Positions 1,652 to 7,680 of a stretch of DNA of 35,170 nucleotides are shown here, in pieces. Numbering within the stretch: the first letter of the stretch is position 1; each line of letters starts with the position of its first letter. Position numbers and translations under genes: made by a program. Origin of the DNA: Saprospiraceae bacterium (GTDB taxonomy: Bacteria > Bacteroidota > Bacteroidia > Chitinophagales > Saprospiraceae); assembly GCA_020627985.1 (NCBI GenBank), contig JAHDFV010000008.1, forward strand, positions 1-35,170, read 5' to 3'. The notes below the pieces were generated by a model. That model had not been told where the DNA came from. It did not search any database and saw only the letters and a program-made list of their open reading frames with translations.

Positions 1652-3043
1652 TTAATGATGTGCTTCTTCTACTGCTGCTCCAATATAAGCCGCAGAAAGA
1701 ATACAGAATACAAATCCTTGAATGAAGGCGACTAATAACTCAATTGCCATCATAAACATGGTTAATGGTATTGCCATTGCAGTTCCTAAGATTGATCCTC
1801 CAGTACTACCAGCTTGTGTCATGGTAGGCGCTCCTCCGAAAATAAAGATCAAACTCACGAAAATGACCAATACAATGTGACCTGCGGTGATATTGGCGAA
1901 TAAACGCAACATCAGTGTTACAGGCTTAATAAACATACCCATGATCTCTACTGGAGTTAAAATAACTTTAACCCAAGCAGGTACACCAGGCATCCAAACG
2001 ATGTGCTCCCAGTAATGTTTATTACCATTAATTGTTGTTAGTATAAAAGTGAACACCGCTAATACCGCTGTTACACTTAAACTTCCTGTTACGTTACCCG
2101 ATCCAGGAAAGAAAGGTATTTGCCCAATTAAATTTAATCCTACTATAAAGAAGAATACAGATAAAAGATAAGGAAGGAATTTATCTGCTTTGTGTCCAAA
2201 GAACGGAACAGCAACTTCATCTCTAATAAATAGAACAACGGGTTCTAATAAAGATTGGATTCCTTTAGGTGCCATTCCTTTTCTAGTAACATAAGCTTTT
2301 GCTGCTGTACGGAATAAAAGGAATAAGATTAAAAATCCTAAAAGCATTGTGAATACATTCTTCGTAATTGAGAAATCATAGAAAGAAGTAATACCCCCTC
2401 CTAAAATTCCACCATCTAGAGTAGATTTTTCATGTAGTTCTAAACATTTACCATTATAACTCACGGTATACAGTGGTAATTCTTTACCATCTTTCATGAT
2501 GTCTTCATGGCCATAACAACCTACTTCTACTTTTCCCATTGGGAAAGAAGAATCAACTATTCTCATTACAGTTCCATGAACCATAACATATCGATCTATT
2601 GCATATTTACCGTTTCCATGACCTGCATTACCAAATGAACTTGATAACATTGCTTTGAAGCCATCATCAGATTTCAAGAAACAAGGTAGGGGAACATAAA
2701 AATCACCAAAAACATGAAATTGATTAAAATCCATGATGTGGTGAAACGCTATTTTACCTGCATCGAATTTATCATCATGCTTTCCACAATCACAGTGGTG
2801 ATGACCATGACCGTGATCATCATGATGTGCAGCATTTTGTTTATGGTCATGCCCAGAGTGATCATGTCCACTATGGTTATGTCCTGAATGATCATGTCCA
2901 GAATGGTCGTGACCTTGGTGAGTACTATGGTCATGCCCTTTGTGATCATGTCCATGTCCTGAATGGTCTTGTGCCGTTAGGTAACCTAGCGTCAAGAACA
3001 TTATACTTATCAAACAAATTATCGTTTTCCTCATCAAATCCAT
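1652..3043 (-). CDS. atpB: ATP synthase F0 subunit a with N-terminal signal peptide and His-rich extension
   Basis: C-terminal half has subunit-a motifs (LMLRLFANITAGHIVLVIF, ELLVAFIQGFVFCILSAAYIGAA); N-terminus is a signal-like segment followed by (GHDHS)n. Confidence 0.92.
   Translation of the reverse strand: MDLMRKTIICLISIMFLTLGYLTAQDHSGHGHDHKGHDHSTHQGHDHSGHDHSGHNHSGHDHSGHDHKQNAAHHDDHGHGHHHCDCGKHDDKFDAGKIAFHHIMDFNQFHVFGDFYVPLPCFLKSDDGFKAMLSSSFGNAGHGNGKYAIDRYVMVHGTVMRIVDSSFPMGKVEVGCYGHEDIMKDGKELPLYTVSYNGKCLELHEKSTLDGGILGGGITSFYDFSITKNVFTMLLGFLILFLLFRTAAKAYVTRKGMAPKGIQSLLEPVVLFIRDEVAVPFFGHKADKFLPYLLSVFFFIVGLNLIGQIPFFPGSGNVTGSLSVTAVLAVFTFILTTINGNKHYWEHIVWMPGVPAWVKVILTPVEIMGMFIKPVTLMLRLFANITAGHIVLVIFVSLIFIFGGAPTMTQAGSTGGSILGTAMAIPLTMFMMAIELLVAFIQGFVFCILSAAYIGAAVEEAHH
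2777..2968 (-). repeat. GHDHS-type His-rich repeat-coding segment in atpB
   Basis: DHSGHGHDHKGHDHSTHQGHDHSGHDHSGHNHSGHDHSGHDHK...HHDDHGHGHHHCDCGKH: 25 His in 64 residues, with an imperfect DNA repeat (tggtcatgtcc variants). Confidence 0.9.
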
Positions 3044-3304: not shown

Positions 3305-3562
3305 ATGAGCTTACCCAGCTATACTCAAAATCAATTGGCTTTGCGCAATGGACAAGATATGAAAGAGATTTGGGTGGCCTATAAAGGAGTCATTTATGAT
3401 GTAACCGAAAGTAAGCTTTGGCGCAATGGTAAACATTACGAACATTGGGCTGGACAAGACCTCAGTCAAGAATTAGAACAAGATGCGCCTCATATGGATG
3501 AAGTCTTTTTAAAATTTGAAGCGGTAGGTACTTTAGTATTTAAAAAGCGCCCTCCTCAATAG
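3305..3562 (+). CDS. Cytochrome b5-like heme/steroid-binding domain protein
   Basis: 85 aa; WVAYKGVIYDVTESKLWRNGKHYEHWAGQDLSQELEQDAPHMDEVFLKFEAVGTL resembles short bacterial cyt-b5-like domains. Confidence 0.8.
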   Translation: MSLPSYTQNQLALRNGQDMKEIWVAYKGVIYDVTESKLWRNGKHYEHWAGQDLSQELEQDAPHMDEVFLKFEAVGTLVFKKRPPQ

Positions 3563-3582: not shown

Positions 3583-4998
3583 TTATAATTTTATCGTTAA
3601 GCCTGCATTCAAGGCGTATTGAAGGCTTGATGTATTCATTTCATAAACATTAGAATGACCATACTGATTCCAATGTATACTTGGACTTAACACGATTCCT
3701 ATTTTTGAAGTCAGCCTGTACTTTACAAAGGGAGATGTTCTATAAGACATGAATAAAGTATTATAAGGTCTTGTCTCCTTTGCTTTTCCTATTTCTACAA
3801 TTTCATTAGAAGAGTTGATTGTTTTACCTTTTTGTTGATACATATAATTTAATCCTATTCCTGCACTTATCCCCAATTCCATCTTTTTCATTTCTTTGTA
3901 CCAACCTATTTCTAATGGTACATTTATACTTCTATATTTATTATGCCATTTAATTGTTCGATGCGCTTTTGCAGGTATCGTTTCTAAACCAACTGAACTC
4001 ATTCGTTCCATTGTTGAATCTGATACATGAAGAATATTAAATTCAACTTGATTTTCATTAAATTCTATTCCTGATTTTACAAACCAATTTTTTCCTTTTT
4101 TTAAGGTAGCTTGGATTCCTGTAGAATAACTCATTTCATTTTGATGTGTTTCTTTTAGTTTTTCACTAAAGGATGAATTACTATTATATTTTTGATCTAT
4201 AATATTAATTCCACCCATTACGCCTAACTCCCATTGTTTTGTTACGTTCTTTTTGGCTGTCTTTTTTTTCTGATTTACAACATGAATTAATTCAATTTTT
4301 TCTTTTACATCATCAATTACAAATACAGATTCTAACATTGGCAATTCAAATAATATTTTTTTCTTTTCAACTTCAATTTCTTTATCCTCAAATATTACTA
4401 ATGAATGATCCATAATTAATATCTTATCTTCTTTTAATTCTTGTTTCGGAGTTATTATATTTTTAATCGATGTATTTAAATTAGAATGAATTGTTGATCT
4501 GATTTTATCATTTAAAACAAGCTCACTATTTATTTTTTCTTCTTGAATAATTTCAATTGAAGTAAAATTTTTATTATTTATTTTTTTAGCTTCATCATTT
4601 TGAGTCCATTTATTTTTTTGATTAATTCCTTCATTTCTTTCTACTAATGTTTCAAGCAATTCATTTTCTTGAGTTATAGTTTTATTATTTTGATTAATAA
4701 TAAATCCTTCTCCCTTATTTTCTATATTATTCGTATTTGAATTAATTTTCTTTTCTGTTGCAACAAATGCTTCTTGTTCTATTTCATTATCAATATGATT
4801 CAATACGAAAAAAGCTGACATTCCTAATATTCCTAAAAAGAAGAAAATAAAGAAAAAACGCTTTTTCCTTTTCTTTTTGCCCCCTTCTTGATTTAATGTA
4901 TTTTCTATCCCAGACCAAATAGCATTTTCGTCTATTCCTTCTAGAGATTGCGCTCCATTAAATCGTTCTTTAATATTTTGTAAAATTTCTTTCATCAT
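3583..4998 (-). CDS. Putative trans-envelope protein: cytosolic N-term, single TM, long low-complexity linker, C-terminal outer-membrane beta-barrel-like domain
   Basis: TM at about residues 48-66 (FFFIFFFLGILGMSAFFVLN) after a KKKRKKR stop-transfer-like cluster; C-terminal ~215 aa looks like PorT/OMP_b-brl repeats (WELGVMGGINII..., YSTGIQATLKKGKNWFVKSGIEF...); 17 nt downstream of the sigma factor gene. Confidence 0.7.
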   Translation of the reverse strand: MMKEILQNIKERFNGAQSLEGIDENAIWSGIENTLNQEGGKKKRKKRFFFIFFFLGILGMSAFFVLNHIDNEIEQEAFVATEKKINSNTNNIENKGEGFIINQNNKTITQENELLETLVERNEGINQKNKWTQNDEAKKINNKNFTSIEIIQEEKINSELVLNDKIRSTIHSNLNTSIKNIITPKQELKEDKILIMDHSLVIFEDKEIEVEKKKILFELPMLESVFVIDDVKEKIELIHVVNQKKKTAKKNVTKQWELGVMGGINIIDQKYNSNSSFSEKLKETHQNEMSYSTGIQATLKKGKNWFVKSGIEFNENQVEFNILHVSDSTMERMSSVGLETIPAKAHRTIKWHNKYRSINVPLEIGWYKEMKKMELGISAGIGLNYMYQQKGKTINSSNEIVEIGKAKETRPYNTLFMSYRTSPFVKYRLTSKIGIVLSPSIHWNQYGHSNVYEMNTSSLQYALNAGLTIKL

Positions 4999-5015
4999 TT
5001 ATTTCTTTTTAATAT

Positions 5016-5579
5016 TCATTCACCCCTTGCTGGAATATTAAAATTACTAAACTGTTCGGCACTAATTCTTTTACTGATCCAAGCTTTTGCTCTAGACATT
5101 CTTTTTCTAGAAAGTGATTCATCTATTTCTAATAATTCTGCAATTTCTTTATGTGAAAAACCATCGATGAGAAATAAATTAAATACTTGAAAATAATTTT
5201 CAGGCATTTTCTTTAAAAATTGCATCATTTCTTCGTTTGAATATTTTGAAAAAACAATCGGATCAACTTTCATTTTAAAACTAGGTAATGCAATATCAAA
5301 AGCTAAAAATTTATTTTTTTTATTATTTTGTTTCAAGCAGCAGTTAATCGTTATTTTTATCGCCCAATTAATAAACTTTCCTTTTACTGGATCAAATTGA
5401 TCTAATTTAGAAAATAAATTAATGAAGGTTTCTTGTAACACGTCATTCCCATAGGTTAAATCATTTAAATATCTTTTACAAACTGCATTTAAATAAGGTA
5501 ATAATTGATGATACAATTGTTTTTGTGCAAGCCGATCCTTGGCTTTACATAAAACAATTATTTCATTATTTACCTTCAT
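5016..5579 (-). CDS. ECF-type RNA polymerase sigma factor
   Basis: 187 aa; region 2-like (GNDVLQETFINLFSKLDQFDPVKGKFINWAIKITINCCL) and region 4-like HTH (FNLFLIDGFSHKEIAELLEIDESLSRKRMSRAKAWI). Confidence 0.92.
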   Translation of the reverse strand: MKVNNEIIVLCKAKDRLAQKQLYHQLLPYLNAVCKRYLNDLTYGNDVLQETFINLFSKLDQFDPVKGKFINWAIKITINCCLKQNNKKNKFLAFDIALPSFKMKVDPIVFSKYSNEEMMQFLKKMPENYFQVFNLFLIDGFSHKEIAELLEIDESLSRKRMSRAKAWISKRISAEQFSNFNIPARGE

Positions 5580-5617
5580 AAAAAAAATGAATTTTTATAG
5601 ACATTCTTAAAAAACTT

Positions 5618-5649
5618 TGATGAAACAGTTGCGAACAACTGCTTCACCA
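5618..5649 (-). terminator. Hairpin between the Cys-rich lipoprotein gene and the sigma factor gene (terminator/attenuator candidate)
   Basis: TGATGAAACAGTTG-CGAA-CAACTGCTTCACCA, 12 of 14 pairs; on the minus strand it is followed by AAAG then TTTTTT. Confidence 0.55.
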
Positions 5650-5687
5650 AAAGCCCTTCAACTAAAATTTAAAACTATACCTATTAA

Positions 5688-7385
5688 TTATTCACACTGA
5701 CAATTCGGAGTTACATAGCCTTGTCCTCCATTAGCTGTTATACAAGGATCTCCAATATAACCTAAACCTGGACATTCTTCATTTTCAAAAATTTCACATT
5801 CACAATCTGGATTCACTAAACCAAACTGTCCTGTAGCATTAAAACAAGGATCTCCAATATATGCTTCTAAACTTGGACAATCATAAACACCTTGTCCAGG
5901 TGAAGATTCACATTCGCAATCTTCATTTGCTATTCCTAATTGACCATCAGACGTAATACAAGGCTCTCCATAATTGGCTTCAATATTAGGACAATCAAAT
6001 CCTCCATTATTCGGTTCTACTTCACATTCACAATTTGGATTCACAAAACCAAACTCTCCTGCATTATTAAAGCATGGATCACCGATGAAAGCCTCTAAAC
6101 TTGGGCAATCAAATGGAACACCTCCTTTATCTTGAATACAATCGCAATCAGGAGTTACAAATCCAATCACACCATTTTCTGTCAAACAAGGTTCTCCTAC
6201 CATTAATCCTAATTCAGGACAATCTTCAAATTGAGGATCATCTAATGCTTCACAAGCACAATCTTCATTGACATAACCAAATTCGCCATTATCGGTGAAA
6301 CAAGGCTGACCAAAGTATGCCTCTAAATCAATACAATCATAAACACCGCCCTGATCTGGCGTATGCGCACATTCACAATCTTCATCTATACAACCAACTT
6401 CTCCAGAATCTGTAATACAAGGTTCGCCATAATTCAATTCTAAATTCGGGCAGTCCCAATCCATATCAGGATGCTCCATTATGATACATTCACAAGCAGG
6501 ATTTACAAATCCAAATTCGCCATCAGCTGTAAAACAAGGATCTCCAATAAATGCTTCTAGATTTTCACAATCAAATTCAATTCCAGGATTTGAAATGTAA
6601 TCACATTCACAATTTTGACTAATACTTCCAATCATTCCATTTTCATTAATACATGGTTCGCCATAATTTACTTCTAAGTCATGGCAGTCATATAAACCAC
6701 TTTGATCAATAACTTCACATTCACAATCTTCATTTACAAATCCAAATTCATAGTTATTATTAAAACAAGGTTCTCCAAAATAAGTACCTAGAGCGGGACA
6801 ATCGTATTCGCCTCCTTGGTCTGGTGTGTGAGCACATTCGCAATCTTCTGTGATACAACCTACATCCCCATTTTCAGTGATGCATGGATATCCAATGTTT
6901 ACTTCTAATCCTACACAATCCCATGTTCCAGTTGGATTTGTATTTTCTAATATTTCACATTCACAAGCAGGATTCACAAATCCAAATTCCCCATTATCAT
7001 TAAAACAAGGTTCTCCAACATATGCTCCAAGATCTGGACAATCTACTCCTTCAGGTGCATTATTTACATGTTCACAATCACAATTTTCTGTAACCGTTCC
7101 TACAATCCTATTACCTATTAAACAAGGATCTCCAAAATTTGAAGCTATATCTGGACAATCAAATTCTCCTACTACATTAATGATTTCACATTCGCAATTG
7201 GGATTCACTAAGCCAAGTTCCCCTGTTGCTGTTGTACAAGGCTCACCAAAAAATGCTTCGATAGCGGGACAATCATAATCTTCTGTCAAAACAGTATCAT
7301 CAACGTTTTCATCATCACAAGAAGCCAATATTAAAGTACAACACATTACTGTCATACAAATCCATAACCAATTTAAATTTTTCAT
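5688..7385 (-). CDS. Predicted lipoprotein made of about 14 Cys-rich repeats
   Basis: ORF is 5688-7418 but the better start is the ATG at 7385 (MKNLNWLWICMTVMCCTLILASC, lipobox). Body is repeated [YFW]DCPxLEAxxGEPCFxxxGEFGFVNPxCECE units. Confidence 0.85.
   Translation of the reverse strand: MKNLNWLWICMTVMCCTLILASCDDENVDDTVLTEDYDCPAIEAFFGEPCTTATGELGLVNPNCECEIINVVGEFDCPDIASNFGDPCLIGNRIVGTVTENCDCEHVNNAPEGVDCPDLGAYVGEPCFNDNGEFGFVNPACECEILENTNPTGTWDCVGLEVNIGYPCITENGDVGCITEDCECAHTPDQGGEYDCPALGTYFGEPCFNNNYEFGFVNEDCECEVIDQSGLYDCHDLEVNYGEPCINENGMIGSISQNCECDYISNPGIEFDCENLEAFIGDPCFTADGEFGFVNPACECIIMEHPDMDWDCPNLELNYGEPCITDSGEVGCIDEDCECAHTPDQGGVYDCIDLEAYFGQPCFTDNGEFGYVNEDCACEALDDPQFEDCPELGLMVGEPCLTENGVIGFVTPDCDCIQDKGGVPFDCPSLEAFIGDPCFNNAGEFGFVNPNCECEVEPNNGGFDCPNIEANYGEPCITSDGQLGIANEDCECESSPGQGVYDCPSLEAYIGDPCFNATGQFGLVNPDCECEIFENEECPGLGYIGDPCITANGGQGYVTPNCQCE
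5691..7277 (-). repeat. 14-unit tandem repeat of about 36-40 codons, alternating A/B unit types with a 4-unit higher-order period
   Basis: Units parsed by eye from the translation; the AHTPDQGG linker occurs after units 4 and 8, and units 3-5 align with units 7-9. Confidence 0.85.
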
Positions 7386-7680
7386 TATTTTATATTTTTC
7401 TGATCTAACAATTTTCAAGGTGCACGCCTTTTACATACATATATATCTGAAAACGCAAACGAATGTGACACTAACAAGCCACTTTTTTAAAATCTTGAGG
7501 TAAACAAAATGACTTCTTTAAGTAAATAAAAAATAAAACAACTATCCTTCAAATAAGATTTTAATGAATCAATTGTCATTTATCATTCTTTTCAAAAAGA
7601 TCGCATTCTTATTCCTTCTTCTCAAATTAATATTAAATAGTTTTCGTAGATGAAGCAGATTCAATTATCTTCACATTTAT

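Follow-up and report, generated by a model that had tools for sequence, protein, structure and literature searches.

A probable Dma-type ECF sigma/anti-sigma gene pair from a Saprospiraceae bacterium with a Cys-rich lipoprotein neighbour and a candidate promoter

Genes and features at the locus

The window analyzed here is a 35,170-nucleotide stretch of contig JAHDFV010000008.1 from a Saprospiraceae bacterium (GCA_020627985.1). It contains a gene for a 187-aa protein (5016..5579, reverse strand) followed, 17 nt downstream on the same strand, by a gene for a 471-aa protein (3583..4998). Positions, strand, and spacing, which had been reported in an initial annotation made from the sequence alone, proved exact on re-checking. 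Domain matches identify the product of the 187-aa ORF as an ECF sigma factor, as had also been proposed there: it matches the Pfam models Sigma70_r2 (7.6e-12) and Sigma70_r4_2 (6.6e-13) and the NCBIfam model TIGR02937 (5.8e-20). Its similarity to the sigma factor of a Bacteroides Dma1-like locus marks it as Das-like. The 471-aa protein, hereafter the partner, has no Pfam match above cut-off; its predicted layout and its homology to Bacteroides proteins make it a candidate envelope-spanning anti-sigma factor of the Dma type.

The first gene of the module (5688..7385, reverse strand) encodes a predicted lipoprotein with 62 cysteines and 14 Cys-rich repeats of about 30 residues each, in which the lipobox LASC is followed by DDEN. 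A strong RNA hairpin with a T-run (5615..5652, reverse strand; z = -5.0) lies between the lipoprotein and sigma genes, and a putative ECF promoter, TGTCAC-N17-GATATA, lies upstream of the lipoprotein gene as a conserved dyad (7442..7470, reverse strand).

Two further genes close to the pair were recorded. A small protein with a cytochrome b5-like heme/steroid-binding domain is encoded convergently with the partner gene (3305-3562, forward strand). The product of the gene for ATP synthase subunit a (1652-3043, reverse strand) has an unusual N-terminal extension, very rich in His and Asp, that follows a signal-like segment; this extension is also present in the related locus L085.

Predicted architecture of the partner protein

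We built an AlphaFold model of the partner on a 28-row family alignment. The cytosolic N-terminal segment (residues 1-47; 4858..4998, reverse strand) is predicted to form two helices (residues 2-14 and 24-39), contains the conserved motif W28-x-x-I31, and ends in the basic cluster KKKRKKR (residues 41-47) just before the membrane. A single transmembrane helix at residues 48-70 (4789..4857, reverse strand), placed by AlphaFold and the locus survey, leads into a periplasmic tether of about residues 71-253 (4240..4788, reverse strand), predicted to be disordered with pLDDT below 50 over residues 71-247. The remainder of the chain (residues 254-471; 3586..4239, reverse strand) is modeled as an 8-strand outer-membrane barrel of the OmpA type, with pLDDT mostly above 90 for the strands over residues 254-470. 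Foldseek matched the barrel to OmpA with an E-value of 8e-8, and its nearest solved folds include OmpA, Ail, OprG, OmpW, and OmpX. The partner is thus predicted with high confidence to be anchored in the inner membrane, to span the periplasm, and to end in an outer-membrane barrel. This layout agrees with the basic cluster, single transmembrane helix, and barrel domain that had been read from the sequence, and the modeled C-terminal domain is a barrel rather than a periplasmic globular fold. The low-complexity stretch that had been described between helix and barrel is indeed about 180 residues long and predicted to be disordered, but its richness in Asn, Lys, Glu, and Ile is not conserved, the tethers of its relatives having other compositions.

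The family alignment identifies the barrel as the best-conserved region of the partner, whereas the tether varies in composition and shows no sequence conservation among homologues. Its length, determined for 139 homologues, ranges from 101 to 280 aa with a median of 173 and never falls below 101. At about 0.35 nm per residue even the shortest tether would extend over about 35 nm, enough to cross the periplasm, and we regard this minimum length as a simple physical signature of a chain that has to do so.

Possible contact between the N-terminal segment and the sigma factor

In the model of the partner alone, residues 1-50 reach pLDDT values of only 51-73. The N-terminal helices reach 77-95 (pTM 0.78) in a fusion model that joins sigma factor and N-terminus artificially and represents a sibling pair, L004, instead of the window pair. 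The two L004 genes lie in frame, so that reading through the stops gives one chain, which we ended before the transmembrane helix. The sigma part of this fusion best matches sigma factors solved in their anti-sigma-bound form, namely SigW:RsiW, RpoE:NepR, and CnrH:CnrY. The model points to a contact between N-terminus and sigma factor and is suggestive only.

Coevolution was analyzed over 144 pairs by Gaussian-DCA. For the top 0.5% of couplings between sigma factor and N-terminus, values were higher than in every one of the 60 matched barrel subsets; for the maximum coupling this was not the case, and plain mutual information did not separate the N-terminus from the barrel. The coevolution signal is therefore weak and mostly phylogenetic background. 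From the fusion model and from experiments on the Bacteroides relatives, which supply the experimental evidence for inhibition, we infer that the first ~40 residues of the partner hold the sigma factor inactive.

Conservation of the architecture and of the gene pairing

A first survey gave matches in 27 of 61 genomes, and 30 of its 31 loci carried an ECF sigma ORF, nearly always directly upstream of the ORF with this architecture. With profile searches, 61 of 297 genomes in the phylum and 243 of 395 in the class gave matches, which shows that the Dma-type architecture is very common in the class. An ECF sigma gene was present at 160 of the 173 loci examined, and several of the remaining 13 are cut by contig or fetch edges. 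The pairing, which the initial annotation had put forward from this one locus, is thus conserved and far beyond chance.

From the 173 loci we extracted 155 distinct sigma-partner pairs, in which a 4-nt overlap is the most frequent gene arrangement. The transmembrane helix of the partners starts at a median position of residue 48, the motif [WF]xx[ILVMF] precedes it in 145 of the 155, and a barrel is detectable in 150. Four short variants of 218-263 aa (L061, L068, L039, and L218) retain the N-terminal segment and the transmembrane helix beside an ECF sigma gene; at least three of them lack a detectable barrel, which suggests that the C-terminal sensor can be swapped.

The window's own genome contains 31 region-4 sigma matches and ten profile matches, the latter corresponding to several paralogous loci. 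At one paralogous sigma-Dma locus of this genome (L033, contig G000:C235), the anti-sigma ORF is apparently split, and undetermined bases lie nearby.

The lipoprotein neighbour and its putative promoter

The Cys-rich lipoprotein gene is located directly upstream of the pair in all five closest relatives, and the encoded proteins are 42-60% identical to that of the window. The wider neighbourhoods of these relatives mostly differ. Across the window and loci L084-L088 the lipoproteins comprise 277-666 aa and 7-16 repeats, the repeat number varying by species. Their mature N-termini are acidic (C-DDEN, C-DEDN, or C-TDEL) and resemble known surface-export signals (PMC5080379). These lipoproteins matched no Pfam family above cut-off, and a PDB sequence search found no relative. 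Lipoprotein neighbours are general for sigma-Dma loci: such a gene adjoins 20 of 26 loci, a count that includes one doubtful case (L104) and misses the Bacteroides NigD, which the filter did not catch, against 6 of 128 control ORFs, a rough rate since these were called mechanically.

TGTCAC occurs upstream of the lipoprotein gene in all six genomes compared, and GATATA follows exactly 17 nt further on in five of them, whereas the flanking and spacer sequences share only 33-37% identity. None of 400 shuffles gave a dyad common to more than three of the six upstream regions. Searching ten genomes for the exact dyad yielded six occurrences, five of them at this module, compared with two for a control pattern, where it has to be considered that the pattern was derived from the same loci in which it was then counted. 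The sole match outside the module (G000:C342) falls within a glycosyltransferase ORF, some 230 nt upstream of a gene for a secreted protein, and was treated as a chance occurrence. Hairpins similar to that of the window separate the lipoprotein and sigma genes in L085, L086, and L088, which suggests a partial terminator or attenuator. Together, the neighbouring lipoprotein and the putative promoter provide a concrete guess at what one Dma clade controls.

Relationship to the Dma family

The envelope-spanning sigma/anti-sigma design of the Dma family was described in 2024 (PNAS; cited in PMC13088901). Pardue et al. report this design in B. thetaiotaomicron; the phenotype seen on deleting dma2 there depends on the sigma factor Das2 (PMC13088901). 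Our comparison genome was that of Bacteroides sp. GM023, not B. thetaiotaomicron, which we searched with the family profile A1; its loci are called Dma1-like and Dma2-like from their neighbours (NigD and DUF4943/DUF4858, respectively), not from locus tags. The best match to A1 (E 9.7e-5) falls on a sigma/anti-sigma pair with a NigD-type lipoprotein gene next to it, in keeping with Dma1/NigD1, and behind a second pair lie genes for DUF4943 and DUF4858 proteins, the arrangement reported for Dma2. Compared by hhalign, the barrel profile matches the Dma1-like locus with a probability of 96% (E 4e-9) and the Dma2-like locus with an E-value of 1.3e-4. The window sigma factor is 31% identical to that of the Dma1-like locus (E 2e-25), and the window partner shares with the Dma1-like protein the two-helix W-x-x-I segment. 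The barrels of the Bacteroides relatives match PF13568/PF13505. A PDB sequence search found no solved structure of a Dma-family protein.

The pair therefore belongs to the already known Dma design; its lipoprotein partner, which is specific to the clade, and the candidate promoter are new parts as far as the literature surveyed shows. That it works as a whole like a Das/Dma-type sigma/anti-sigma system, with a spanning-tether mechanism and a lipoprotein output, we consider very probable. Known Dma members are linked to vesiculation and to the regulation of glycan loci, and the only promoter site conserved in its context here lies at the module's own lipoprotein gene; neither demonstrates the envelope-integrity signalling that had initially been proposed. 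The accompanying idea that one chain combines sigma binding, membrane helix, tether, and barrel is supported by structure prediction, pairing, and Dma homology, but the design is not new (PMC13088901).

Proposed mechanism and alternative explanations

We propose that the sigma factor would be restrained by the N-terminal ~40 residues of a protein that passes the inner membrane with one helix and reaches its outer-membrane barrel through a disordered tether of ~180 residues. A tether that lacks both order and sequence conservation is unlikely to transmit a conformational push, and cleavage or lost barrel engagement is favoured. Release would thus most probably occur by proteolysis of the tether or transmembrane region, or through failed insertion or engagement of the barrel. 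Conservation of the dyad suggests that the freed sigma factor would then drive transcription of the adjacent lipoprotein gene from TGTCAC-N17-GATATA, with weaker read-through past the hairpin into the sigma and anti-sigma genes. The outcome would be autoregulation together with a surface-lipoprotein output.

The same mechanism could have a different trigger if the barrel had the adjacent surface lipoprotein as its ligand or partner and thereby sensed it in a feedback loop, the lipoprotein then being more than an output. The frequency of lipoprotein genes at sigma-Dma loci, the joint movement of the Cys-rich lipoprotein and the pair through otherwise different neighbourhoods, and the export-like acidic N-termini all fit such a role. 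On the other hand, the lipoproteins are not the same across Dma clades and their position is equally explained by regulation, so that we regard a ligand role as possible but doubtful. Slightly more tentative still is a generalization in which Dma loci would be three-gene modules of surface lipoprotein, sigma factor, and spanning anti-sigma factor, the barrel monitoring its cognate lipoprotein and the sigma factor driving the promoter of the latter. If true, the cell surface would report back to the gene on the quality or abundance of one particular lipoprotein.

The sign of regulation cannot be read from gene order alone. Some FecR-like proteins are required for sigma activity, and on this precedent the partner might be a co-activator or scaffold instead of a plain inhibitor. 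Pfam detects no FecR domain in the partner, however, and in the homologous Dma2/Das2 pair the dependence of the Dma2-loss phenotype on Das2 means that Das2 is restrained by Dma2 (PMC13088901); a co-activator is accordingly improbable. Least probable of all is a periplasmic or misassigned C-terminal domain signalling from the inner membrane only, for which the sub-threshold Pfam barrel models on the window partner and the 5 of 155 partners without a detectable barrel could be cited, but which conflicts with the confidently modeled strands, the OmpA, OmpW, and OmpX folds among the best matches, the Pfam barrel families of the Bacteroides relatives, and the minimum tether length.

Comparison with known systems

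The proposed envelope-spanning anti-sigma mechanism resembles FecR/TonB-receptor signalling in leading from the outer membrane to a sigma factor. In those systems, a TonB-dependent receptor supplies the barrel as a protein of its own and a FecR domain is part of the anti-sigma factor; neither is found here: the partner has no FecR match, and the neighbouring ORFs in the first 12 kb of the window include no TonB-dependent receptor. We therefore ruled out a relay of this type. With CnrY:CnrH, NepR:RpoE, and RsiW:SigW the pair shares a short cytosolic helical anti-sigma segment that is predicted to become ordered on a compact ECF sigma factor, whereas none of these anti-sigma chains includes an outer-membrane barrel. 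RsiW differs further by its Cys/His zinc motif; residues 1-47 of the partner contain neither Cys nor His, which rules out a zinc-binding anti-sigma factor of the RsrA/RsiW type (HxxxCxxC).

The closest likeness is to the Bacteroides Dma systems, which have the same succession of N-terminal sigma-binding segment (putative in the present pair), single transmembrane helix, disordered tether, and C-terminal barrel, an adjacent ECF sigma gene, a lipoprotein gene next door, the same gene order, and detectable homology. The sequences are very distant, and the neighbour is NigD or DUF4943 in Bacteroides but a Cys-rich repeat lipoprotein here. The Saprospiraceae pair thus carries a design known so far chiefly from work on gut Bacteroides into a distant lineage.
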